DNA of 39,353 nt, taken from NCBI GenBank assembly GCA_024762975.1, contig JANTGJ010000017.1:1-39353 (forward strand). Direction: 5' to 3'. Source of the stretch: Candidatus Krumholzibacteriia bacterium (GTDB taxonomy: Bacteria > Krumholzibacteriota > Krumholzibacteriia > LZORAL124-64-63). A program made the position numbers and the translations under genes. Of this stretch, positions 13,950-29,031 are shown in pieces. Position 1 is the stretch's first letter. Each line of letters begins with the position of its first letter. A model generated the notes under the pieces. That model had not been told where the DNA came from. It did no database searches and saw nothing but the letters and a program-made list of their open reading frames with translations.

Positions 13950-15275
13950 TCAATCGTCGCCGCGATCGTTCTTGCCCAGGAAACGCGCTTTCGGCACATC
14001 GTGTCCGATCGAACGCAGCCGTTGCCGTGCACTGTCGTACAATTCGCTCGCCGGCACCCGCGCGTGTCCCAGCTTGATATCGTACACGGGTTCCCCCTGC
14101 ACGAATCGCCAGTGGTTCAGCAACGTCGGTACGGCCGAGCCGGGTTCAAACTGGATGAATCGGCGATGCGATGAGGACAGAATCAGCGGCGGATCATTCC
14201 GTTTGGCGGCAAAGTGGATCAGGTCCAGCAGGTATCGGTCGTCCACCAGCTGTTTTCCGTCGCGATCCAGAAAATAGCGTTGGATGCGTCCGGCCAACTG
14301 CGTGTCGAAACCGCCCCAACAGAGATCCACGACGAATTTGTCATAGGTATCGATCGCGTCCATGACGAAAGCGCCGAGCAGGGCTGCGTAGCCGAATCGT
14401 GCGCTGATCCAGATCATGGCCAGGTCGTCCGAAACGCCGTCGCCCAGGCGGCGGCGGAAAAACTCCTGATCGTGTTCGGGATAGGAATACCGCGCCTTCG
14501 AATCCCGGCAGATGACGCCCAGATCGCGCAGCATGCGCAACTGATCCTCCAGCAGCACACTGCTCCCCGGATCGCGCAGACCGCACATCTCGAAGCGTTC
14601 GCGATCGACGATCCAGATCTCGCCGCCACCGATCAGGAAAGGCAGCCCCTCGAACGTCCTCTTGTGCTGCAGCATGGCCGTCTTGCGGGTCGACCAGTCA
14701 TCCATGAATCCGGCCAGCACGAGGCCGGTCAGGAATTCCCGGGTGTTGACCGCTTGCCCGGCCAGAAAATCAACTCCGAAAAGTGGCGCACCGTCGACGA
14801 CCAGTTCGAGTTCCGGATCCTCGATGTGCTCGAAGATCCAGTCGGCGAATCGCGCGAGCATTTTGCCGCGCCGGTGGCGAACCCGTTCCGAACGCAGGTT
14901 CGGATCGGTCTTTTCCAGCACCGTCAGGATACGGTCAAACGTGGCGTCGGGAAATCGAAGTCCGGTACCGTATTCGTCGGTGAACAGGCCATGACCGTTC
15001 TGGGCCCGGCCCAGCACCGACTGCGGAAGCAAATCGGACAGGGCGCGCGGTCCGGTGGCGAACTTCTGTCCCATGAGATAATCGAAGTCGTGTTCAACCA
15101 GGGCACCGAAGAGTTCGGCGTGGCGCCGGAGGTCCAGGTCGCGTGCGAATCCGCGACCCCGTTCGGCGCCATTTCTCTGCCGCGGTTCCGGCTCCGATCC
15201 GGAGTCTGCGAGCTGATCGAGGAGGTCCTCGACGCCGGGCCGGTCGCGACCCTTCCTGCTGCGCCTGCGCTTCAA
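13950..15275 (-). CDS. Conserved-looking hypothetical protein downstream of ftsY
   Basis: 441 residues; I do not recognise the family. The N-terminus (about 1-45) is very basic then acidic and probably disordered. The rest appears soluble and globular with no signal peptide or membrane helix. A stretch near LLEDQLRMLRDLGVICRD followed by a Tyr-rich strand resembles a winged-helix recognition helix and wing, but this is only a pattern impression. WSTRKTAMLQHKRTFEGLPF and WGGFDTQLAGRIQRYFLD are other distinctive blocks. TTG 15275 is supported by GGGAGG five bases upstream, 21 nt after the ftsY stop, so it is probably co-transcribed with smc-ftsY. Reading frame and codon use look genuine. Confidence 0.75.
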   Translation of the reverse strand: MKRRRSRKGRDRPGVEDLLDQLADSGSEPEPRQRNGAERGRGFARDLDLRRHAELFGALVEHDFDYLMGQKFATGPRALSDLLPQSVLGRAQNGHGLFTDEYGTGLRFPDATFDRILTVLEKTDPNLRSERVRHRRGKMLARFADWIFEHIEDPELELVVDGAPLFGVDFLAGQAVNTREFLTGLVLAGFMDDWSTRKTAMLQHKRTFEGLPFLIGGGEIWIVDRERFEMCGLRDPGSSVLLEDQLRMLRDLGVICRDSKARYSYPEHDQEFFRRRLGDGVSDDLAMIWISARFGYAALLGAFVMDAIDTYDKFVVDLCWGGFDTQLAGRIQRYFLDRDGKQLVDDRYLLDLIHFAAKRNDPPLILSSSHRRFIQFEPGSAVPTLLNHWRFVQGEPVYDIKLGHARVPASELYDSARQRLRSIGHDVPKARFLGKNDRGDD

Positions 15276-15296: not shown

Positions 15297-16358
15297 TCAG
15301 CGATCCTGCGAATCCGCATCCGAAACCTCTTCCGAGTCGGTCCAGTCGGCAAACAGGGCATTGGCAAACTGCTCCGGATCGAACACGGCAAGGTCCTCGA
15401 CCGTTTCTCCCATGCCGACATACTGCACCGGCAGGCCCAGGGTCTCTGCGATCGCCACGACGATACCGCCCTTGGACGTGCCGTCCAGCTTGGTCAGGAT
15501 CAGGCCTTCGACCGGAATCGTTTCGGCAAATACGTTGGCCTGCGACAGTCCGTTCTGACCGGTGTTGCCGTCAATGACCAACAGCGTCTCGGGGTCGCGG
15601 CCGGTCTTGCGGCGGATCACGCGGGCCATCTTGCCCAATTCGTCCATCAGGTTGCTCTTGGTGTGCAGGCGTCCGGCCGTATCGACGATCACGACATCCG
15701 AGCCCCGCGCCTGGGCGGCGGCCAGGGCATCGAAGACTACGGCGGCTGGGTCGGAGCCGGGCCCCTGGCGCACGCAGTCGACGCCGATGCGCTCGGACCA
15801 GATCACGAGTTGGTCAACGGCCGCCGCGCGAAAGGTGTCCGCGGCGGCAAGCAGCACGTTTTTTCCCTCGTTCTTCAACAGGTGGGCCAGCTTGGCAATG
15901 CTGGTGGTCTTGCCGGTTCCGTTGACGCCGACGATGAACAGCACGCGCGGCCCCTCGGTCGCAGCGGTCGGCTCGACAGCCTCCGCGGCAACGTCGTTCC
16001 TCTTGCCCTTCTTCTTTTTCTTCTTCTTGCCGGCGTCGGAATCCAGATCCCAGGTCAGCGGTACGATGCGCGGCTGGGCCGTGGTCAGGATCTCCTGCAC
16101 ATCGGCGCGAATGACCTGCAGCACCGACTCGATGGAAGCCTCGCCACCCTCCTCCTTCAATCGCTTTTCGATGTTCTGCGTGATCGCGACCGACGACTTG
16201 ACCCCCATGTCCGCACCGATCAGCAACTCCTCGATCTGGTCGAGCGTATCCTCGTCCAGCCGAATCCGGCCGCCGAAGAGATTGCTCAGCTTGCCGACGA
16301 AGCTTTCGCGCGTCTTGCGCAATCCCTGGCGAAAGCGCCCCAGCGCTCCGCGGATCAC
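15297..16358 (-). CDS. ftsY: Signal recognition particle receptor FtsY
   Basis: 353 residues. The N domain (about 1-100) is followed by the SRP GTPase domain with G1 GVNGTGKTT (144-152), DTFRAAA (174-180), G3 DTAGR (226-230), TGQN (266-269) and [10 protein letters not shown] (289-298). It docks SRP-ribosome complexes at the inner membrane for co-translational insertion. There is no long acidic A domain. Between N and G domains lies an unusual insert with seven consecutive lysines (111-117) and a spacer of about 18 residues. GTG 16358 overlaps the smc stop (GTGA), with GGAGG eight bases upstream. Confidence 0.96.
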
Positions 16359-19300
16359 TCGCTTGCCTCCATACGGTCGTCAGACTCCTCCATCGATTCG
16401 GCCTGATCGCCATCCGTTTCTGCCGGGTCCGGTTCGGGTTCCAAGTCGGCCGCCGGCGATGCCGGCTCCTCCGTGGTCTCCGCAGCGGCCTCCGGCATAT
16501 GCATCTCCGTTTGCGCCTGCCGCTCCCGTTCCAGACGCCGGTTCTCGCTCGTATCGACCTCGGCCCGGCGACTGGCGATGGCGTTGCCCAGCTCCTGATC
16601 CGACTGTGATTCGGCGACGTCATTGAACGTGACCGAAACGATGTTCGAGCACCCCGGCTCCATCATCGTCACCCCGTACAGGTGGTTGGCGGTTTCCATG
16701 GTCAGCTTGTTGTGCGTGATGACCAGGAACTGCGTACTGCGACTGAATTCGCGCAGCATGGTGACGAAACGGTTGATATTCGAATCGTCCAGCGGCGCGT
16801 CGGCCTCATCCAGTACGCAGAACGGCGAAGGCTTCACCAGGTAGACGGCGAACAACAACGACAGCGCCGTCAAGCAGCGCTCCCCCCCGGACAGCAGCGA
16901 CACGGTGTTGACGACCTTGCCCGTCGGCTGCGCCGTCACATGTAGATTGCTTTCCAGCGGATCGTCGGTGCGCATCATCTGCAGGTCGGCCCGGCCGCCC
17001 TTGAACAGCGTCTGGAAGACGGCGATGTAGTTGCGGCGCACTTCCTCGAACGTCTGAGCGAACCGTTTGCGTGCCGTCTGGTTGATCTCGGTGATGGCCT
17101 TGACCAGATCGTCGCGGGCCTTCTCCACATCGTCCCGCTGGGCTTCCAGGAAGTCCAGCCGTTCCTTCTTGGTGTCGTATTCCTCGAGGGCCAGGTGATT
17201 GATCGGGCCGAGCGAACCGATGATGCGTCGCTTGTTCTCGAGAATCCCGGTCGCCTGTTCGATCTGGAAAACCTCGCCGTCGCGTTCGAGCTCCTTGGGC
17301 AGCTCGTCTTCGTTGATACCCGCTACCAGATCCGCGAAGCTGCCCTTGTACTGTTCCTCGATGCGCTCCTCGAGATTGTTCATGCGAACCTCGAGCGTGG
17401 CCAGTCGGGTTTCGACCTCATGCGCCTGTTCACGGTAGCCACCGCGCATCTTTTCGATCTCCTGGACTCGCTGGTGCCATTGATCCGTCTCTTCGTGCAG
17501 GACATGAATGCCTTCGACAGCGGCCCGGACGACACGGCGGCGCACTTCACGCTCCTCGATGCTCTTGCCCAGGATCTCCCGTTTGGTTTCGAGCTCCTCG
17601 GTCAGCGCACGCATCGACTCGCGCCCCACCTCGATCTCCTGGGAAAGGCGTTCGCGACGCGAAAAGAGTTCGGCCACGTTCTGCTTCAGATGCGTCAGTG
17701 CGGTCTCGGTCTCCCGTTTCTGGCTTTCACGCCGCTGATGCATCAGGCGGAATTCCTCGACCTGGGCGCGGGCCTCGTCGCGGGTGATCTCCGCTTCCGC
17801 CACGCGCTGACGCAGGTCGTCCCGGTGCAGGGTGGAATCCTCGCGCAGCTTGCCGCTCTCACTCAGCAGATCCGTCAGTTGCTCCTCGTCGCCATCCAGC
17901 ACACCGATCTCGGCCTGCAGACGCTCGCGCTCCACCTCCATCTCGGCCGCCCGTTTGCCCGCCGAATCCCGCCGGTCCGCGAGCTGGGCCAGTTCGACCA
18001 TCACCGACTGCAGTTGCCGGTCCATCTCGTTCAGGCGCCCGCGGCCGTCGATCAACGCCTGGCGCAGGTCCTCGCGCCGGGAGCGGTTGGCAGCCAACTC
18101 CTCCTGGGCCGCGGCCAGATCGGTCTCGGCCGTGGCGACCTCGTCGGCCAACTTGTCCAATTTCTCTTTGCGGCCGAGCAGCGCCGTACGATCCTCGCCG
18201 CCCTCGCCGCCACCGCGTACGCTGCCATCACTGCCGATCAGCAGGCCACTGCGACTCGCACACAACAGGGTGCCGGGGCCGGAGTACGAACGCGCGGCAT
18301 CAGCCGCCGTCCGGTCGTCGTCGAACAGCACCGTCCTCGCAAGCAGGTTGCGCAACGCGGGCAGTTCCGTGCCCGGGCCACGAACCGCATCCAACGCCCA
18401 ACGGCCGCCCGCCACCCCGGGATTCCCGCTGCCGTCCGCGTTGAACCCGCCGCACAGGAACCGGGCCTGCCCGATCTCCTCGCGACGCAGTTCGCCGACC
18501 AGATCCAGCGCCGCGTCGATACCGTCGACCACGACGGCGTCGAGTGTATCGCGCAGCACGGCTTCCAGGGCGGCACTGTCGCGTTCATCCACTTTCAACA
18601 GATCCGCCAGGCCACCCCGGATTCGATCCTGGTCGCCGAAGCGTTGGAGAATCTCGCGCGAACCCCGGCCGTACCCTTCGTAGTCGTCCTGCAGTTTCTG
18701 CAGCAACGCGAGGGTCGATCGGGCCGCCTCCAGCTTGCCGTGCAGGGCCGATCCCTTTTCCTGCAGGGTCGTGGCGTCCACTTCCAATTCGGTTTCGTTG
18801 CGCTCGATATCGGACAACTCCTTCAACAGCGCGTTGCGGGCCTCCGACTGGGTATCCCTGCGCACCGCGAGCTCGTCCAATTCCCGGCCCGCGGTTTCAC
18901 CCTGCTCCAGGATCCGCGTGCGGTCCTCGGCCAGGATCGAAATGCGTTCCTGCCGATTCTCCCGCTTGACCTGGATCTCGCGCAGCTTCGAACGCTGCGA
19001 GGCATCATTTTCGATGAACTCCAGATTCCGGTGTGTGGCTTCGTCCAGCGCCGCGCGATCGGTCGAGAGTCGGTCTTCGAGTACGTGCAGGGACTCCTGC
19101 CGCTCGGTCAGCATCTCCGCGCTGGTCTCCAGCTCGTCCTCGATCGTGCGCAGATGCTCCTGCATCCGTTCGATCTGTCCCTCGATTTCCTTCTGGCGCA
19201 CTTCGGCCTCGGACATGCTGGCGCTGTTGTCCGTCTCGCGACGTTGGTGTTCATCGAGACGATGCTGCAGCACGAGCACCTGGCGCTCGGTCTCCTGCAG

Positions 19301-20188
19301 TTCCTCCTCGAAAGCCGCCAGGGCCTCTTCCAGCTGCGTGCGTTCGGCTTCACGTTCCTCGATCTGCGGGCGCGCGGCTTCGATCCTGGCCTGCAGTTCG
19401 GCCAGTTCACCGACTCCGGTTTCGGCCTGGGTGCGAAATTCCTCCAGCTTCTGGCGCCCCGCGGTGTCTTCACTCTTCATCTGCTGGTGCTGGCGCTGGG
19501 CAATGACCAGGTCCAGGTTGCGGATCTGTGCGAAGAGGCTCTGATGGCGTCGCGCCTTGCCGACCTGGCGTTGCAGCGATCGCACCTCGCGACCGATCTC
19601 TTCAACGATGTCGTACAGCCGGGTCAGGTCGGCCTGCGTACGATCCAGCTTGCGCTGGGTCTCCTTGCGCCGGGCCTTGTATTTCGTGATGCCCGAGCCT
19701 TCTTCCAACAGCGTGCGCAACTCGTTGTTGTTCTCGTTCAGGATTTGCTTGATCATCGATTCCTCGATGATCGAATAGGCGGTGTTGTTCACACCGCTGT
19801 CGAAGAACAGATCCCTCAAATCCTTCAGACGGCAGGGCGAACCGTTCAGATAGTATTCGCTGCCGCCGTCCCGCGTGACCTTGCGCTTGATCGACACTTC
19901 TTCGAAGTCGATCGGAAGCGCATGGTTTTCGTTGCTGAACGTGAGCGTGACTTCGGCCATGCCCACGGGCCGACGCTTCGTCGTACCCTTGAAGATCACG
20001 TCGTCCATCTTGCCGCCACGCAGTTGCTTGGCAGACTGCTCGCCCAGTACCCAGCGAATCGCGTCCACCACGTTCGACTTGCCGCAGCCGTTGGGACCGA
20101 GAATGGCTGTAATGCCCTGGTCGAATTCGAGGCGGGTCCGGTCCACGAAGGATTTGAAGCCCTGGATCTCGATGCTGGTCAACTTCAC
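16355..20188 (-). CDS. smc: Chromosome partition protein SMC
   Basis: 1277 residues, somewhat longer than typical (about 1150-1200). Walker [10 protein letters not shown] near residue 32 follows the start [13 protein letters not shown]. Two long coiled-coil arms flank a hinge around the [20 protein letters not shown] region. The C-terminal head has the signature [14 protein letters not shown] and Walker [16 protein letters not shown]. It compacts and helps segregate chromosomes with ScpAB (not in this window). The last 84 or so residues after the head form an acidic, low-complexity tail rich in Glu, Asp, Ala and Pro. GTG 20188 has AAAGG upstream; ftsY begins in its stop codon. Confidence 0.97.
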
Positions 20189-20258: not shown

Positions 20259-21755
20259 TCAGAATTTTGTCGGGCGCCCCCAGTCCTCGCCCAGCTCCTT
20301 GAGCAGCGGGCCCAGCGCCTCGTTGGCGGCCGCCCGATCCGGGAAACTGCCCAGATAGACGCGCTGCCAGCGGCCCTTGTCCTTGATCTGCACCGCACGG
20401 ACCGCCGTCTGGAAACCGCGCCGTTCCAGTTCCCTCAACTCCACGGCCGCCGTTTCCTCATTCGGGAACGAATAGATGTGCAGGGCCCAACCGTCCGCAC
20501 CCACGGGAACCAGGTAGGGGTCCATGAAGAACTCCGGCTCGGCGGGCTCTTCGGACCGAGTCGTGTCCGCAACGACCTCGGCGACCGTTGCGACCGTTGC
20601 CGAATCGGTGTGCGCAATCCCGGTCGAATCGGGAACCGAAACGGGGCCGCCGGCGTGATCCGTCTCGTCGGAAACCGCGTCCGGCGAGTGGGGGGTCCGC
20701 GCATCGGCAGGCATCTCGTTCTCGTTTCGCACCGCCACAGGATCGCCGTCCAGGGAGGTAACCATGACAAATGCCCGATAGTACCATACCGAGCCCAGGA
20801 TCAGGGCCAGAGCCCCGACGGCAATCCACCAGAACACGCGCGAGGTACCCCGTTTGCGCGCATACTGCCGACTGGGCGGGGTCTCGGCCGCCGAGGTTCT
20901 CCGCTCTTCCCAGTTGTCGGCCCGACCGGGATCCGCGGGCGCCTCGATCCGGCCGACCGGAGGAGTTGTCGCGAGAACCGGCTCGGACTCCGGCGCCCCC
21001 TCCGGATTCGGTTTCCCAGCTGCCGGTGGCATCCCCCCCATGGCGTCCTCGGGGGCATCGGCAACCGCCGCTTCGTGTCCGAAACGCAACACACCGGTCA
21101 GCGGGGTGCCGGCGGCCAGGAATCCCCGGCCCAGCGCCTCAATCGTGGCTCGATCGAGCCGGGAAGCATCCCAGCACAGGGCACGGATCTCGGCCTGGGT
21201 CGCCCAGGCCCTCCCCGCATCCCCGATCGGACAGCAGAGCAGAATGTCGTCGGCCTGCCGGCGCAATCGTCCCAGCAACTCCACGATTTCCCCGGGCTGC
21301 GCATCGACCGGACGATACGAGCCCGGACCGATCAGCAATCCCTGGCGTCCCGGAAACGGCAAGCGCTCGCTGCTGGTCATCAGCGAGGCACCATACCGAA
21401 TCAGATCAATCCAACCTTCGCGATCCAGGCGATCGGCCCAGCGTGCCAACACCGGATCCTCGTCATCGCAATCCAGGATCAGGACGGACTGGTCTCGCCC
21501 GGTCAGGTCACGGGCCAGCGCCAATGCCGCCGTTGCCGCCAGATTTCCCTGGCCCGGTTCATACAGCAACAGCCAGGTCCGCGGAGCGGGGCGGTTGTCC
21601 AGAAGCGCATCCGGCGCCACCTCCATCTCGCCCTGCAGCAACCAGTCCTGAATCGCGGAATGGAAATCCGATTCCACGGGAAAACCCAGGTTCTGCGGAT
21701 CCCAAGAGGTCGCATACACCGGTACATCATCGAAGAGAAATTCTTGATCAGTCAT
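20259..21755 (-). CDS. Membrane protein with degenerate P-loop ATPase-like domain and C-terminal SPOR domain
   Basis: 498 residues. Residues 58-100 read like a MinD/BY-kinase ATPase core (LLLYEPGQGNLAATAALALA, then SVLILDCDDEDP), but the Walker A lysine is absent (EPGQGNLAAT, 66-75). A Pro/Glu-rich linker (230-305) leads to one membrane helix (308-329) after a basic stretch, then a periplasmic linker and a SPOR domain (about 423-496: WALHIYSF ... RWQRVYLGSFPDRAAA). SPOR domains bind glycan strands lacking stem peptides, usually at the septum. ATG 21755 overlaps the selA stop by 8 nt. Lying between selA and smc, it may link cytoplasm and division-site wall. No close family recognised. Confidence 0.82.
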   Translation of the reverse strand: MTDQEFLFDDVPVYATSWDPQNLGFPVESDFHSAIQDWLLQGEMEVAPDALLDNRPAPRTWLLLYEPGQGNLAATAALALARDLTGRDQSVLILDCDDEDPVLARWADRLDREGWIDLIRYGASLMTSSERLPFPGRQGLLIGPGSYRPVDAQPGEIVELLGRLRRQADDILLCCPIGDAGRAWATQAEIRALCWDASRLDRATIEALGRGFLAAGTPLTGVLRFGHEAAVADAPEDAMGGMPPAAGKPNPEGAPESEPVLATTPPVGRIEAPADPGRADNWEERRTSAAETPPSRQYARKRGTSRVFWWIAVGALALILGSVWYYRAFVMVTSLDGDPVAVRNENEMPADARTPHSPDAVSDETDHAGGPVSVPDSTGIAHTDSATVATVAEVVADTTRSEEPAEPEFFMDPYLVPVGADGWALHIYSFPNEETAAVELRELERRGFQTAVRAVQIKDKGRWQRVYLGSFPDRAAANEALGPLLKELGEDWGRPTKF

Positions 21756-23193
21756 CGTTCGATCCGTGTTTCCCTGCATTCGGGGCTATGGACTCCCAGG
21801 CTCGCCGGTACGCCGCGACCACCAGGTCCAGATCCGACTCGTCGAGGGTGCGAACGTCCACAGCCAGCCCCTCCTGATTCATGCGCCCCACCAGAGCCGG
21901 ATCCCCCCGCCGCAACTCCTGGTGTACGCGTTCCAGTTCCTTCTTGGATGCTTCGAAGAGCACCAGTCTGGATTCGATTGTCGTAGAGGAAAACGAACCG
22001 CCTCCCACGCTGGAACGTCCCGGCACCACCGTTCCGTGCCAACGGGCCGGCGCCAGTGGCGCCAGTTTCTCCAGCAGACCCTCGGCTTTTTCCTGCAGTT
22101 GCGGCAGCGTTGCTCCCAGCTGTTCCAGCGTCGGCACTTCCGGTCGGTCGTCGGTTGCCAGGTAGTGCGTCAATACATCGTCCAGAGCCGCCAGGGTGGT
22201 CTTGTCCACGCGGAAGGCCCTGCGCATCGGATGCTTGCGCAACCCGGCAACATGGTCGCTCGAACCCAGTATGGCGCCCGCCTGGCAGCCGCCGAGCAGT
22301 TTGTCTCCGCTGCAGGTGACCAGGTCCGCACCTGCGGCCAGATCCTCGGCAAGCAGGCGTTCGCCCGTCGGCAGGCCCAACTTCTCGTACGGATACAGGG
22401 CACCGCTACCGGCATCGTAGACCAGCGGGCAATCGTGTTCACGACACAGCCCTGCCAATTCCGGCAAGCCGACTTCCTCGGTGAATCCCTCGACCGAAAA
22501 ATTGCTGCGATGCACCTTCAGCACGATCGTGTCCGGCCCCAGGGCCTGGCGATAGTCCTCCACGCTGGTGCGGTTGGTCGTTCCGACCTCGACGAGAGTA
22601 CACCCGGTCTCGGCCAGGATCTCGTGAATCCGAAACGATCCGCCGATGGCCACGATCTCGCCGCGCGACAGAACAACCCGGCCACCGCGGCTGAGGTAGC
22701 GCACGGCGAGCCAAACCGCCGCGGCGTTGTTGTTGACGATCAGCGCATCGGGAGCGTCGGCCAGCAAGGCCAGCTTTTCTTCGACGCGCCGTCCGCGATG
22801 CCCGCGGACACCCTCTTCGAGATCGAACTCCAGATCCGAATTGTAGCGAGCCACGGTCCACGCCGCATCGGCAGCCGACTGCGGAAAGCAGGATCGGCCC
22901 AGATTCGTATGCACGACCACGCCCGTGCCGTTCAATACGCGTGTCCATGACGGTGCCAGCAGCATTTTGCGCCGCGCGGCGATTCTGCCGCACAGCAGAT
23001 CGATCAATTCTCCGCGCTCCCGCACGCGACCCCTGGCCGTCCTCAGCTCCTCACGCAGGGCGTCGACCTCGCTTTGCACCAGGCGCGTCATCCACCCCCG
23101 CTGACCGGCGGCCAGCCACGGCAGGATGCGCTCGTCCTCGAGCAGCACGCTGATCTGCGGAATACGGGATAGGCGGTCCGAAACCTGGGACAT
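21748..23193 (-). CDS. selA: L-seryl-tRNA(Sec) selenium transferase
   Basis: 481 residues. It is a PLP enzyme that converts seryl-tRNA(Sec) to selenocysteinyl-tRNA(Sec). N-terminal RIPQISVLL and LNGTGVVVHTNLGR are characteristic, followed by VNNNAAAVWLAV, KVHRSNFSVEGF, DAGSGALYPYE and the PLP-lysine motif SGDKLLGGCQAG (K298). Full length for the family. The ATG is preceded by AGAGGAATTC. No selB, selC, selD or obvious selenoprotein lies in this window. A possible terminator sits about 33 nt upstream. The SPOR gene begins within its last codons. Confidence 0.96.
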   Translation of the reverse strand: MSQVSDRLSRIPQISVLLEDERILPWLAAGQRGWMTRLVQSEVDALREELRTARGRVRERGELIDLLCGRIAARRKMLLAPSWTRVLNGTGVVVHTNLGRSCFPQSAADAAWTVARYNSDLEFDLEEGVRGHRGRRVEEKLALLADAPDALIVNNNAAAVWLAVRYLSRGGRVVLSRGEIVAIGGSFRIHEILAETGCTLVEVGTTNRTSVEDYRQALGPDTIVLKVHRSNFSVEGFTEEVGLPELAGLCREHDCPLVYDAGSGALYPYEKLGLPTGERLLAEDLAAGADLVTCSGDKLLGGCQAGAILGSSDHVAGLRKHPMRRAFRVDKTTLAALDDVLTHYLATDDRPEVPTLEQLGATLPQLQEKAEGLLEKLAPLAPARWHGTVVPGRSSVGGGSFSSTTIESRLVLFEASKKELERVHQELRRGDPALVGRMNQEGLAVDVRTLDESDLDLVVAAYRRAWESIAPNAGKHGSNDD

Positions 23194-23359: not shown

Positions 23360-23439
23360 CGGAAACCGGGATTGCTGTATGGTGCTGCAAATGACCCTGG
23401 AATGATCGCCGAAGTTCCTGTCCCCTCGTGGAGGTCGCT

Positions 23440-25893
23440 TTGCCCGCTCCCATCCCCGAAAATCGGACGCGCCGTTCCCGGAAGGCACGGGCCCGCCTCG
23501 GGGCCGTACTGCTGGCCCTGAGCGTACTCAGCAGTTGCGCCCCACCACCGGAACCCGAAGTCGCCCCCACCGTTCCGGGCTACCTGGCATTGAGAGAGAC
23601 CTTCGGACCGCGGGACTTCGGACCGTTGCAGGGGCGCCGCATCGTGATCGACCCGGGCCATGGCGGGTACTTTCGTGGCGCGCTCGGCCCCGATGGCCTG
23701 ACCGAAGCCGAAGTGAACCTCGGAGTTGCCCTCCATCTGCGCGGCCTCTTGGAATGGGCCGGAGCCGACGTCGATCTGACCCGTACCGCGGACTACGATT
23801 TCCTGACCCCGGCAGACAGCACGCTGGCGAGCGACCTGGCTTCACGTGTTGCATTCACAGACAGTATCCAACCCGATGTCTTTCTTTCAGTTCACCATAA
23901 CAGTACAGCCGCCCGCGACGAAACGATCAACGAAACCCAAACCTACTACCCACTGCACGACAACGGCCCTTCCCTCGAACTGGCCCGGGCGATCCATCGA
24001 CACCTGGTGCGCAACCTGGAAATCCGACCGGCGAAGATCCTGCCCGGTAACTTCCACGTCCTGCGCAATGCCACGGTACCGGCGGTGCTGGGCGAACCGG
24101 CCATGATTTCACACCCGGTGATGGAGCACCGGTTGAGCCTGGCTTCCAGCCAGAAACTCGAGGCGGAGGCCTATTTCCTGGGACTGCTCGACTATTTCCA
24201 AGCGGGCACCCCCCGATGGATCGGTCCGGAGATCGTGTTGCCGGCGGACGACGGGGCGCCCCGCATCGTCCATTGGCGCTTTCTGGCCGAAGGCGACTCG
24301 ACGAACGTCCGCCCTCCCCACCCGGCCCCCGGTCCGGACCCCAGCAGCTTTCGCCTGCTGGCAAACGGCGCGCCGGCCCCGCTTCACACATCCCCCGATG
24401 GCGTGACCGTAACTTTTTTAGAAAAAACTAGTTCTACAGACATCGTGAAGCTTTCCCTGAACGGAATGAATCTGGCCGGAAGAGCGGCACCTACGGCCCA
24501 TACGGTCCTGCCGCCCGCACCAGCATCCAGACTGATCGTGGATCTGTTGCGCCCCTCCGACCCCCTGGCTCCGGCGCTGGGCCACTGGCACTCCGTTGGC
24601 GGCCCCCTGCCCGGGCCCGGGCGCCTGCAACTGGAGGGCTTTGACGACACCGACCTTCTCGAGGGTGCTTCAGGCACCGCCATTCTGACACCATCGGCGA
24701 CTCGCCGGGAGATTTCGCGATTCGAGCCGGATCAAGGGAGAAGTATTCCGGTCTCCGTGAAGGTCATTGATCTGCCGGTGGGGCGGGATTGGCGGTTGCT
24801 GCGCGCCGGCTCTGCGCTCGACAGTTCCTGGTTCGCGAACCACCCCTGGCGAATGCGCTCCGGTTCCGCACGACCAACCCTGCCCGGAGCTCCCGCTGCA
24901 CTGACCTGCAACCCGAGCGATCCGATCTGGCTGACCATCCCGGGCCTGTTGCCGGCAGTACGCACCACCGACATGGCCGGGTTCGAACAGGGCACCACCG
25001 GCGACGGGCGGATCTGGACGCTACCGCCACTGCTGCCGGCGACGGCCGGCCGTACGATCGTCATCGATCCGGCCGGCGGAGAGGGGAGCCCCGGCCCGAC
25101 GGGAGCGACCGGATTGCGTGCTGCTGACGTGAACCTGGCAGTGGCGCAGGAAGCTGCCCGCCTGTTGCGCGGAGCCGGAGCCCAGGTCATTCTGACGCGG
25201 GAGGATGGTCATCTGCTGCCGGATCCGGACAAGGTACGGCTGGCCGAAAAGTACGGGGCAGACCTGTTCCTGGTGCTGGAACGAGCCCGGGCCGGTGACC
25301 CGTTGCGGGCGCGACATCATCCCGGCAGCGTTGCGGGCAGCGCCTGGGCAGAGGCCCTCACCCAGGCCTGGCAACCGCTCGCAGCGGTCAGCGACACGCT
25401 GGCCGTAGCCCGGTCGTGGGCCTATCTGCTCCGGCATACCGCCTGCCCCGCGCTGGAGGTGTTTCTGCCCGGTCCGGATCGGAACGGATGGGAAGAAATA
25501 CTGGAGAATACCGACTGGCTGCGCGCGGAGGCCCGTGCACTTCTGTTGGCCACCTGTGCGGTTTTCGACAGCGACAGGGTATTGAACACCGCGATCGATC
25601 CGCTCGTGGTTCTCCATGAAATCGCTCCACTGATGGAACCGGACGCGATCCAATGGATCGAATGGGACGGCAACTTCCTGTGGACCTTGCCGGCGGTACT
25701 CCCGGCGGTAGCATCCTCTTCCCGCATCCCTGCCGAATCGGTATCTTCAATTGCCGGACCGGGGCTTCCGGCTCGCGGCCCGGTGCATACGCTGGAGGTA
25801 CACACCCGGGATCGCTGGCAGCTCTGGCTGGTCGAACGCCACGATGGTCGTTGGAGCGGCCGGATTCTGTTGGAGGGAGAATCGACCCGATGA
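23440..25893 (+). CDS. N-acetylmuramoyl-L-alanine amidase lipoprotein with a second, degenerate amidase domain
   Basis: 817 residues. A basic N-terminus and hydrophobic stretch end in lipobox LSSC (C33). The Amidase_3 domain (about 67-255) has zinc ligands H74 (DPGHGG), E89 (TEAEVNL) and H152 (SVHHN), and a catalytic-type E219 (LGEPAMIS). It cleaves the amide between MurNAc and L-Ala of peptidoglycan. A strand-rich middle (about 270-530) leads to a second amidase-like domain (538-710) where these positions are A545, A561 and E614, so zinc binding is unlikely. TTG 23440 is chosen since GGAGG lies five bases upstream; in-frame GTG 23428 has no such site. The TonB-like gene overlaps its stop. 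Confidence 0.9.
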   Translation: MPAPIPENRTRRSRKARARLGAVLLALSVLSSCAPPPEPEVAPTVPGYLALRETFGPRDFGPLQGRRIVIDPGHGGYFRGALGPDGLTEAEVNLGVALHLRGLLEWAGADVDLTRTADYDFLTPADSTLASDLASRVAFTDSIQPDVFLSVHHNSTAARDETINETQTYYPLHDNGPSLELARAIHRHLVRNLEIRPAKILPGNFHVLRNATVPAVLGEPAMISHPVMEHRLSLASSQKLEAEAYFLGLLDYFQAGTPRWIGPEIVLPADDGAPRIVHWRFLAEGDSTNVRPPHPAPGPDPSSFRLLANGAPAPLHTSPDGVTVTFLEKTSSTDIVKLSLNGMNLAGRAAPTAHTVLPPAPASRLIVDLLRPSDPLAPALGHWHSVGGPLPGPGRLQLEGFDDTDLLEGASGTAILTPSATRREISRFEPDQGRSIPVSVKVIDLPVGRDWRLLRAGSALDSSWFANHPWRMRSGSARPTLPGAPAALTCNPSDPIWLTIPGLLPAVRTTDMAGFEQGTTGDGRIWTLPPLLPATAGRTIVIDPAGGEGSPGPTGATGLRAADVNLAVAQEAARLLRGAGAQVILTREDGHLLPDPDKVRLAEKYGADLFLVLERARAGDPLRARHHPGSVAGSAWAEALTQAWQPLAAVSDTLAVARSWAYLLRHTACPALEVFLPGPDRNGWEEILENTDWLRAEARALLLATCAVFDSDRVLNTAIDPLVVLHEIAPLMEPDAIQWIEWDGNFLWTLPAVLPAVASSSRIPAESVSSIAGPGLPARGPVHTLEVHTRDRWQLWLVERHDGRWSGRILLEGESTR

Positions 25894-26648
25894 CGAGCGC
25901 ATCACCGCAGCACGGTCCCGGCCCACGGGACAGCAAATTCACCTCCCGTGCGCAACTGGCCTTCCGCCGGGGCAGCACCCGTCGCCTGGCCGGCGCCGTC
26001 GCAGTCGCGTTGATCGCACTGGTTGTCCTGGTCCTCCTCGGCCCCAGCCGGGACGCCGTCCGCAAGCGATTCGAGTACTATGGAGCTCCCGGCGAAATGG
26101 TGATCATGCAGGAGATCTCGATCGACGAGGGATCGGCGAAGGTCCATCAACTGCCCCAGACCCTGCAAACACCGCCTCCCCCGTCCCGGATCGAGATCGA
26201 GCCCGAACCGGAAAACGAGGATGCGACGGATCCGAAACCGCGCGATGCGCCGGTCAACGACCTCCAGGAGATCGATCTGCCCAGTACCGACCCGAATCCC
26301 GATGCGGACCGGGTGATGGACAATCAGGTCGAGTTGGCGCTGCCACAGCAGACGAACCCCGATTGGTACCTCTTGGTGCATGTACTGCCCGAGTACCCCT
26401 TCGACGCGCCGCCGTCCGAGCAGCGGATCCCCGTCATACAGGTCCGAGTCGCGATTTTCGTGAATCGGGAGGGCGACGTGACCGAAGCCATGATCCAGTC
26501 GGCGACGGGCGGTTCGACCTTCACCAACGAAGTCCTGAAGAAGGTGCAACAATGGAAATTCGGCTGGCGCATCGATCCCGAGGCCGGCCGTTGGATCGAG
26601 TTGACCTTCAACTTCAACAGCCCCTATGCGCCGCGGCCCCGCCGCTAG
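25890..26648 (+). CDS. TonB-family periplasmic-spanning protein
   Basis: 252 residues. A basic cytoplasmic N-terminus is followed by a single membrane helix (about 33-51), an acidic and proline-rich periplasmic stretch (about 85-150, with PPPPS and EPEPEN) and a C-terminal TonB_C-like domain (PVIQVRVAIFVNREGDVTEA, VLKKVQQWKFGW). Canonical TonB carries a His in the membrane helix for ExbBD coupling; none is present here, and no exbB/exbD is nearby. ATG 25890 overlaps the amidase stop as ATGA, with GGAGGGAG upstream. Coupling to an amidase hints at a wall-related or outer-membrane role rather than standard iron uptake; this is inference. Confidence 0.82.
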   Translation: MTSASPQHGPGPRDSKFTSRAQLAFRRGSTRRLAGAVAVALIALVVLVLLGPSRDAVRKRFEYYGAPGEMVIMQEISIDEGSAKVHQLPQTLQTPPPPSRIEIEPEPENEDATDPKPRDAPVNDLQEIDLPSTDPNPDADRVMDNQVELALPQQTNPDWYLLVHVLPEYPFDAPPSEQRIPVIQVRVAIFVNREGDVTEAMIQSATGGSTFTNEVLKKVQQWKFGWRIDPEAGRWIELTFNFNSPYAPRPRR

Positions 26649-26687: not shown

Positions 26688-28574
26688 CTAGCGTTCCGCC
26701 GGTACCGGCTGGAGCGCATCCATGCCGAGGCTGTCCGCCGCAACGGTATCGGCATGCGCCTGCTCCCAGGCCCACGCCTCGGCGAATAGACGGGCCGGGA
26801 AGCGCACCACACGCCCGCCGCGGACCATGCGCACCGACTGCTCGAAGGAGTCGAGGCCTTCGGCGTCGAAATCGCGACTGGCCAGGCGTCCGCGGAGGGC
26901 TGCCGTCAACTGTGCCCGGTTCGCGACCCCTGCGTCATTCATCGTCTCGAGCAGCATCCGCAAAGCCTGGTAGACCTTCAGAGCCTGCGGTGTGACCTCA
27001 CCGGGATAGGCATCTTCCTGCCATTTGAGATAGAATTCTTCGGTCCACTGCGGTCGGAACATGGCCAGATCCGAGGGCAACAGGGCGCCGTCCAGGGAAT
27101 CACCGGCGCGCTGGATCAGCCGTTCGGAATTCCAGTGACTCAGGCCCAGCACCATGGCTCCGGAGCGATAGAAATCCAATTGCGGGCCGAGCATGACCAT
27201 CTGGTCCACTGTTGCCGGCGTAAAAATCACCTCGGGCCGGTATTCGCGCAGCTTCAGGATCGGTGGGCGGAAATCGGTCCCCGCGGGCGGGTAGGAGGCC
27301 ATCGCCAGCACCGTGCCGCCCAACGCCGCCACTTCGGTACTGAAGTCTTCGGCAATCCGGCGCCCTTCCGGATCATCCGGATACAGGACAGCGAAACGCT
27401 CCTTCAGCAGCACCTTCGTGGCTACCTGGGCCAGCAGACGAATCTCGAAAAGCCCGGTGAGGTTGGTCTGAAATATACCGTCCCCCAGCTTCCAGACGCC
27501 CTCGTTCGTCGCCGTTGGAGAAACCAACGGCACCCCGTAGCTATCACACACCAGCGCCGCGGCCGCGGTCGACGAACTGAGCAACGAACCCAACAGGACC
27601 ACGGCGCCTTCCTCGGCGCACAAGCGCCGCGCAGCCAGGGCCGCGGTCACCGGATCTCCCGCCGTATCTTCGACCAGCAATTCGTAATTTGTGCCCATCT
27701 CGGTATTGGCGGCGTCCAGCGCCAGCAGGGCCGCATCGACAAAGGCATTCCCCAGCAACGCATACTTCTCCGTCAACGGAGCCAGCAACCCAATGCGATT
27801 GATCTGCACCGGACCGGAAGGCTCGTAGTGGGGACGACGTGTCACCGATTCCGGATCGGCGACCAGTTCGCGCGCGGCCAGGGTCCAACGATCCGCCGGA
27901 GCATCCACTCCCAGCCGGTCGACCACGCCCTGTGCCGCCTCGAATTCACCGAGTTGCAGGTGGTCACGCACCCGCAGGTAACCGAGGTAGGGATAAAGAG
28001 CGGAATTGGGCACGCGTCCCATCAGGCTGGCCAATTGGGTTCCATCCAGGCGTTTCAGGTAGAGATCCGCCTGCGGAGCACCATCGGGTCCGGTCGCACG
28101 GGCCGGATTGCGGTCGTGATAGCGCACCAGAAGGTAGGCCGCATCGAGAGTATCGCCCGCGGCAGCTGCCAACCCGGCGCCGCGTTGAAGCGTCTTGTCC
28201 AGGAGCGGGCTGCCGGCAAAGTCACTCATCATTTCGGACACGAACCGGCGCGCGCGTTCCGTCTCGCCCAGACTCACGGCCGAGTCGATGGCCATATCGA
28301 GGACCTCATCGTTACGATCGAACCGCGAGTGGTAATCGAGTAGATTGGCCGCAATCTCCAGCGTCTTGCGGTCCCGGTGCAGCTGATGCTCCATGACCAT
28401 CTGTGCATACAGGCGCTGCGCCTGATCCAGTTCGGGGCCCTGCAATCCCGCGACGGTTTCGGCAGGCGGATTCTGTCCCCCGCAGCCGGGCAGCAGAATC
28501 CAGGCGGCGATTCCGGCCAGCACGGCGGTCATCAAGAGGGCCGATCGGCGAGCGAAGATCTCGGTCCGCGGCAT
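26688..28574 (-). CDS. LpoA-like lipoprotein: TPR-like helical N-domain plus periplasmic-binding (LivJ-type) C-domain
   Basis: 628 residues. The lipoprotein signal ends in LPGC (C31). A helical region (about 40-245) resembles TPR repeats. The C-terminal domain (from about 258, INRIGLLAPLTEKYALLG, through VVLLGSLLSSSTAAAA, PLVSPTATNEG, FAVLYPDDPEGRR to about 600) is a type I periplasmic-binding fold. This is the architecture of LpoA, the outer-membrane activator of penicillin-binding protein 1A, and also of branched-amino-acid sensors. ATG 28574 has AGGAG eight bases upstream, 10 nt after the DUF2914 gene. Whether it activates a PBP is untested. Confidence 0.82.
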   Translation of the reverse strand: MPRTEIFARRSALLMTAVLAGIAAWILLPGCGGQNPPAETVAGLQGPELDQAQRLYAQMVMEHQLHRDRKTLEIAANLLDYHSRFDRNDEVLDMAIDSAVSLGETERARRFVSEMMSDFAGSPLLDKTLQRGAGLAAAAGDTLDAAYLLVRYHDRNPARATGPDGAPQADLYLKRLDGTQLASLMGRVPNSALYPYLGYLRVRDHLQLGEFEAAQGVVDRLGVDAPADRWTLAARELVADPESVTRRPHYEPSGPVQINRIGLLAPLTEKYALLGNAFVDAALLALDAANTEMGTNYELLVEDTAGDPVTAALAARRLCAEEGAVVLLGSLLSSSTAAAALVCDSYGVPLVSPTATNEGVWKLGDGIFQTNLTGLFEIRLLAQVATKVLLKERFAVLYPDDPEGRRIAEDFSTEVAALGGTVLAMASYPPAGTDFRPPILKLREYRPEVIFTPATVDQMVMLGPQLDFYRSGAMVLGLSHWNSERLIQRAGDSLDGALLPSDLAMFRPQWTEEFYLKWQEDAYPGEVTPQALKVYQALRMLLETMNDAGVANRAQLTAALRGRLASRDFDAEGLDSFEQSVRMVRGGRVVRFPARLFAEAWAWEQAHADTVAADSLGMDALQPVPAER

Positions 28575-28584
28575 GGATAGTCTC

Positions 28585-29031
28585 CTATTCGACGACAAAA
28601 GCTGCGGTATGCAGCACCTTGCCCGAGGCATCGAGGACCTTGACCTCCCACGCACCCGTCCAGGCGGGCAGGATGCGCTTCGAGGACCACGTTCTCCAGT
28701 TGGAGGATCCGACCTTCAAGGTGACCCGGGCCTTGGCCTCACCTTCGTGATACCAGGCATGGGTGATGGTGGTCGGGACTTCCAACCCCTGGACTCGGGT
28801 CAGGCAATAGATGGTTCCCGCGTCGGCGGCGAAATGATCTCCGGGATCGACGAGCTCACGCGTGACGCGATCGAGCTCGGTGCCCAGCTGTGCCGAAACC
28901 TGCACGGTCGATTCGGACTCGTTCGTGTCGGCTGCGACCGCATCAGACAACGGACCTACCGCCAACACGACGAGGGCAACGACAACACCGGTTGTCGCGC
29001 GCGGAACGAGATACTGCAAGCGGTGGATCAT
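28585..29031 (-). CDS. Secreted DUF2914-domain protein
   Basis: 148 residues. The signal peptide spans about 1-34 (hydrophobic VVVALVVLAV, then SDAVAAD). The remainder matches the DUF2914 pattern: an aromatic-Cys YCLTRV, PTTITHAWYHEG, SSNWRTWSSK, TGAWEVKVLDASGKVL and a final FVVE strand. It is a small beta-rich periplasmic domain of unknown function. ATG 29031 has GGAGGAG five bases upstream. It is sandwiched between the parvulin lipoprotein and LpoA-like genes, so an envelope role is likely. Confidence 0.85.
   Translation of the reverse strand: MIHRLQYLVPRATTGVVVALVVLAVGPLSDAVAADTNESESTVQVSAQLGTELDRVTRELVDPGDHFAADAGTIYCLTRVQGLEVPTTITHAWYHEGEAKARVTLKVGSSNWRTWSSKRILPAWTGAWEVKVLDASGKVLHTAAFVVE

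Follow-up and report, generated by a model that had tools for sequence, protein, structure and literature searches.

In this study, a gene was characterised in a stretch of 39,353 nucleotides from a Candidatus Krumholzibacteriia bacterium (contig JANTGJ010000017.1; hereafter the window), the product of which joins a degenerate BY-kinase domain, as judged from sequence profiles and predicted fold, to a single transmembrane helix and a C-terminal SPOR domain. The protein is new as a combination, both of its parts being of kinds already known, and it belongs to a real, conserved family that occurs well above chance and has probably not been described so far. In keeping with the initial annotation, which knew of no described protein of this architecture, a full-text literature search of partial coverage returned no paper combining the terms "SPOR domain" and "BY-kinase", the fusion itself having been sought within Krumholzibacteriota. 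The family is of interest as an envelope protein, apparently undescribed, that is nearly universal and fixed in position throughout an entire phylum, and as a case in which a BY-kinase fold appears to have become a pseudoenzyme joined to a predicted cell-wall sensor.

The reading frame is open throughout its 498 codons, from an ATG at position 21755 to a stop codon at 20261-20259, and a further ATG at 21779 is an alternative candidate start that would add eight residues. The features of the gene and of its neighbours are collected in the table below. The initial annotation had placed the gene correctly and had given no strand; its single membrane helix and its SPOR domain were both recovered. 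The predicted helix is the sole segment of the protein that exceeds 1.6 on the Kyte-Doolittle scale with a 19-residue window, and it is flanked by five lysine and arginine residues on the N-terminal side versus one on the C-terminal side. Across the family, positive-inside counts favour an N-in orientation for 43 of 73 members only. The linker between the helix and the SPOR domain is variable.

Table. Features of the pseudo-BY-kinase/SPOR gene and its conserved neighbours, in window coordinates
Feature	Position	Strand	Basis
Pseudo-BY-kinase/TM/SPOR gene	20259..21755	-	Open frame; homologs at the equivalent place in 74 other genomes
Degenerate BY-kinase-fold domain, about residues 28-227	21075..21674	-	PDB profile (BceF), Foldseek, hhalign
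Former Walker A loop EPGQGNLAAT, residues 66-75	21531..21560	-	Aligned with GEGKST of BY-kinases; Ala73 at the lysine position
Walker A' (DxD) strand LILDCDDEDP, residues 92-101, retained	21453..21482	-	Asp95 in 72/73 and Asp97 in 68/73 members
Single transmembrane helix, residues 305-325	20781..20843	-	Hydropathy and flanking charge
SPOR domain, residues 421-485	20301..20495	-	PF05036 E 8.1e-8; FtsN 1uta by family profile
selA, upstream neighbour, 8-nt overlap	21748..23193	-	PF03841 E 3.8e-114; upstream in 72/74 loci
smc, downstream neighbour	16355..20188	-	SMC_N E 1.2e-72; 22-99 nt downstream in 60/74 loci
ftsY, next in the conserved run after smc	15297..16358	-	SRP54 E 2.5e-74

Single-sequence searches with Pfam, NCBIfam and phmmer against the PDB gave nothing firm in the N-terminal half, Pfam reporting the SPOR domain only. 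The profile of the family matched BceF (E 2.3e-11), CapB (1.8e-7), VpsO (8e-7) and Wzc (3e-5) in the PDB, compared with 0.0024 for ParA and 0.0045 for MinD, and hhalign related it to BY-kinase-type proteins of the phylum at 98.2% (E 3.6e-14). An AlphaFold model of residues 1-241 of the window protein reached a mean pLDDT of 90.9 and a pTM of 0.88, and that of a distant member a mean pLDDT of 80.4 and a pTM of 0.82. With both models, the best 50 Foldseek matches in the PDB were all BY-kinases (Wzc, CapB, BceF, VpsO, Etk); against VpsO, the window model had a TM-score of 0.75 by target length at 2.8 A rmsd. Both models have a fold of the P-loop ATPase type, and no fold unrelated to P-loop ATPases was predicted. 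Among individual members searched with NCBIfam, tyrosine autokinase models led (best E 6.1e-10), followed by the KGGVGR AAA model (6.5e-9). The MinD model TIGR01968 (minD_bact) matched only 1 of 41 members at all (E 2.3e-4, short of the NCBI cut-off), and the window protein did not match it at E 10; the Ssd model TIGR03815 matched three members weakly (best E 8e-4). The layout had been described earlier as that of a MinD/BY-kinase ATPase. Because profile, predicted fold and PDB comparison agree, the choice between the two falls to the BY-kinases: the BY-kinase half of that description stands, and MinD as nearest family is rejected, the best MinD and ParA scores being many orders of magnitude weaker. 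By these lines of sequence and model evidence, the N-terminal region is a degenerate BY-kinase domain, nearer to BY-kinases than to MinD or ParA.

The state of the active site was read from an alignment of 73 members, including divergent copies located by synteny, with eight BY-kinase-type sequences of the phylum (seven with Lys and one with Thr at the lysine position) as the Walker A reference. The catalytic lysine reported missing from the window protein is indeed absent, and no member retains it: the position holds Arg in 42 members, Ser in 14, Ala in 10, Gly in five and Leu in two, the divergent copies included. The glycines and the Ser/Thr of GxGK(S/T) are not kept either, and the position of the Walker B aspartate is occupied by Cys in the window protein and by Val, Leu and others elsewhere, with no Asp among the residues listed for the 73 members. 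No pattern of the EX2RX2R-type helix was seen in the aligned columns, in a region that aligns poorly, and residues 226-303 of the window protein contain one tyrosine (Y298), so that no tyrosine cluster lies in the stretch joining the domain to the membrane helix. In the tree of the domain, families f2, f3, f5, f6, f7 and f8 carry Arg at the lysine position in every aligned member, as does one clade of f1. Ala, Ser and Gly occur only in the remainder of f1, except that f4, where the alignment is least sure, has Leu or Ala. Most of the taxonomic family of the window itself carries Ala, Ser or Gly in place of Arg. The simplest reading of these sequences, for a tree whose root is not established, is an ancestral change from Lys to Arg followed by further loss. 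The domain had been called decayed, a word that misleads, because Arg is the prevailing residue at the lysine position, the DxD motif is kept and the state is phylum-wide; the loss of catalytic residues is old and ordered. The Walker A lysine of BY-kinases has a further role, pairing with the Walker B aspartate in an inactive state (PMC8517177); as that aspartate is gone, the residue at the lysine position cannot play the identical inactive-state role. The pseudokinase domain has presumably lost the binding or use of nucleotide. A separate BY-kinase-like protein in another genome of the phylum (L126:1593-2477:+, genome G035) has REGATY replacing GEGKST.

The SPOR domain scored 32.9 bits with PF05036 on the window protein alone, against a cut-off of 21, and 36.4 bits in the search of the genome. 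The SPOR profile of the family also matched E. coli FtsN (1uta) with an E-value of 4.9e-4. The ligand of SPOR domains is glycan that has lost its stem peptides, the product of septal amidases, and Q251, S254, W283 and R285 of FtsN are needed for septal localisation (PMC6895207). The equivalents of S254 (Ser429, kept in 63 of 64 sequences), W283 (Trp463, 59 of 62) and R285 (Arg465, 62 of 63) are conserved in the family, and the equivalent of Q251 is His426, a histidine in 56 of 63. Such conservation suggests that the domain is under selection to bind glycan, His having taken the place of Gln; given the replacement of so important a residue, affinity for glycan cannot be taken for granted. The genome of the window (G000) contains five SPOR matches over the Pfam cut-off, of which the pseudokinase-SPOR protein is the weakest.

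The first protein search matched 47 of 58 related genomes. Among the 11 apparent absences, selA was found in nine, and a divergent homolog followed it in eight of these nine; in the remaining cases, one contig stops inside selA, and in two genomes selA was not detected. The 41-row profile of the N-terminal domain found matches in 77 of 80 Krumholzibacteriota genomes, one of which, G002, gave a weak match at a separate 896-aa frame that was not counted as a family member. The genomes with neither a usable match nor a rescue by synteny are G002 and G006 (selA undetectable) and G045 (contig stops inside selA). In the divergent families, the gene was located by its place between selA and smc, and the order of the domains is unchanged at very low identity. 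The domain tree tracks the taxonomic families, which agrees with the expectation of vertical descent. In a named genome collection, a scan with the single protein gave no matches and the 41-row alignment gave no conserved stretch, and a closer alignment yielded 24 loci, about half of them from Candidatus Krumholzibacteriota or Krumholzibacteriia and the rest mostly from organisms named as unassigned bacterium.

The position of the gene, first described as coupled to selA and next to smc, is repeated in the other genomes. In the window, the end of selA and the start of the pseudokinase-SPOR gene share the eight nucleotides atgactga, and the GTG start of smc (20188) lies 70 nt beyond the stop codon. 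Across 74 loci, each from another genome, the two loci without selA directly upstream are those at which the contig ends, and the loci without smc downstream likewise end with the contig, except L088, in which the frame enters a stretch of N. The ftsY gene is kept after smc in most loci of sufficient length. No selA-smc pair without an intervening pseudokinase-SPOR gene was seen among the Krumholzibacteriota genomes examined. The conserved neighbourhood comprises an lpoA-like gene, an amidase gene, selA, smc, ftsY and rib genes, and no polysaccharide gene was recognised in it.

Compared with the BY-kinases BceF (6z0p), CapB (4jlv/3bfv), VpsO (6u1q) and Wzc (3la6), the window protein shares the fold, sequence homology over the whole domain and the DxD motif, but lacks the Walker A lysine, the Walker B aspartate, the EX2RX2R-type helix and the tyrosine cluster; moreover, its domain precedes the transmembrane helix and is linked to a SPOR domain rather than to a Wzz domain. 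With the bitopic SPOR division proteins of E. coli, FtsN, DamX and DedD, it has in common one transmembrane helix and a C-terminal SPOR domain, to which it adds a large cytoplasmic domain of BY-kinase fold; within the SPOR domain, to which the comparison with FtsN was confined, the difference lies in the His at the place of Gln251. BLASTP against DamX gave no significant match. In DamX homologs of other gammaproteobacteria, an AAA domain, a transmembrane helix and a SPOR domain occur in a single chain, although this AAA domain is of the ExeA type, unlike the BY-kinase fold. TadZ/CpaE and Ssd, which are proteins of the MinD/ParA type, are alike by analogy in their P-loop fold, atypical Walker A motif and role in localisation or septum-site placement, whereas the sequence of the window protein is nearer to BY-kinases; to our knowledge, neither TadZ/CpaE nor Ssd has a SPOR domain.

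On balance, the protein is probably a bitopic inner-membrane division scaffold, with a SPOR domain that would find septal glycan and a pseudokinase domain that would dock a partner in the cytoplasm. An N-in/C-out topology would place the SPOR domain in the periplasm, where it would bind the peptide-stripped glycan made by amidases at the septum, and the protein would accumulate where the cell divides. In the cytoplasm, the pseudokinase domain would present a static, rigid docking surface and would be neither a kinase nor a MinD-type oscillator. Candidate partners are SMC, a cytoplasmic component of the divisome, or an active P-loop paralog. SMC is among them because smc is always the next gene where the contig reaches that far; selA and ftsY are equally fixed neighbours, so that synteny alone cannot pick the partner and is no proof of interaction. 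The narrower proposal of a phylum-specific coupler of septal wall and chromosome, in which the SPOR domain would detect denuded glycan and the pseudo-BY-kinase domain would recruit SMC or set its position, is quite unlikely. If the scaffold reading is true, the protein would provide a route for relaying the remodelling of the septal wall to the cytoplasm, with SMC as a possible recipient, and its importance would rise if SMC or another chromosome factor were the partner. No MinD over the curated cut-off of TIGR01968 was found in 10 Krumholzibacteriota genomes, including that of the window, in which many ParA/MinD-type ATPases are present.

Several other explanations were weighed against the scaffold. 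The domain may still bind, and perhaps hydrolyse, ATP by means of the DxD motif together with the Arg or another residue, so that docking toggles with the binding of septal glycan. The near-invariance of both DxD aspartates and the prevalence of Arg in most families are consistent with such a nucleotide-responsive switch, and ATP hydrolysis has been reported for the TadZ of E. rectale in spite of the loss of its conserved lysines, a lysine from an adjacent helix compensating (PMC10482377). This precedent keeps residual nucleotide use a live rival, but the loss of the remaining Walker A residues, the lack of an aspartate among the residues listed for the Walker B position of the 73 members and the replacement of Arg in most members of the taxonomic family that includes the window speak against it, and we regard it as unlikely, though deserving attention. 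Somewhat less probable still is an ordinary division protein resembling FtsN or DamX, with the cytoplasmic domain as a minor tether and the adjacency of smc as a frozen operon of no functional meaning. This explanation overlaps with the scaffold and differs in denying the pseudokinase domain a specific docking role. The anatomy is that of a bitopic SPOR protein, and selA, ftsY and the rib genes of the run have no evident role in division. However, the long conservation of a domain of about 200 residues, confidently folded in the models and with invariant positions, suggests a specific cytoplasmic role, and in DamX of E. coli Pfam finds no domain other than SPOR.

The close relation to BY-kinases leads to a further possibility, that of a pseudokinase partner of an active BY-kinase or ParA-type paralog, which would regulate the synthesis of envelope polysaccharide or cell wall, the SPOR domain serving as a wall anchor with no specific role in division. 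Copies with GEGKST do occur within the same genomes (for example, G000:C144), but the EX2RX2R-type segment is not kept in its poorly aligned region and the conserved neighbourhood lacks recognisable polysaccharide genes; this possibility is improbable. Finally, the degenerate P-loop might be taken as the mark of a decaying pseudogene or a spurious frame, for which the likelihood is negligible, since the frame is open and the order of domains is kept across eight families of the phylum, with a confident fold in the models; conservation rules it out.

Four further frames of the window recur near this gene run in relatives. A protein with two Amidase_3 stretches (23428-25893, plus strand) is divergent from selA and adjoins it in many relatives; amidases produce the denuded glycan that is bound by SPOR domains. 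Beside it lies a 331-aa frame (25653-26648, plus strand) without a Pfam match at 1e-5, which accompanies the amidase gene in relatives and for which "TonB-like" is a label of convenience only. A Peripla_BP_6 protein of the LpoA-like type (26688-28655, minus strand) keeps its placement in the neighbourhood phylum-wide. In addition, a 441-aa frame (13950-15275, minus strand), also without a Pfam match at 1e-5, is kept downstream of ftsY in many members of the family to which the window belongs.
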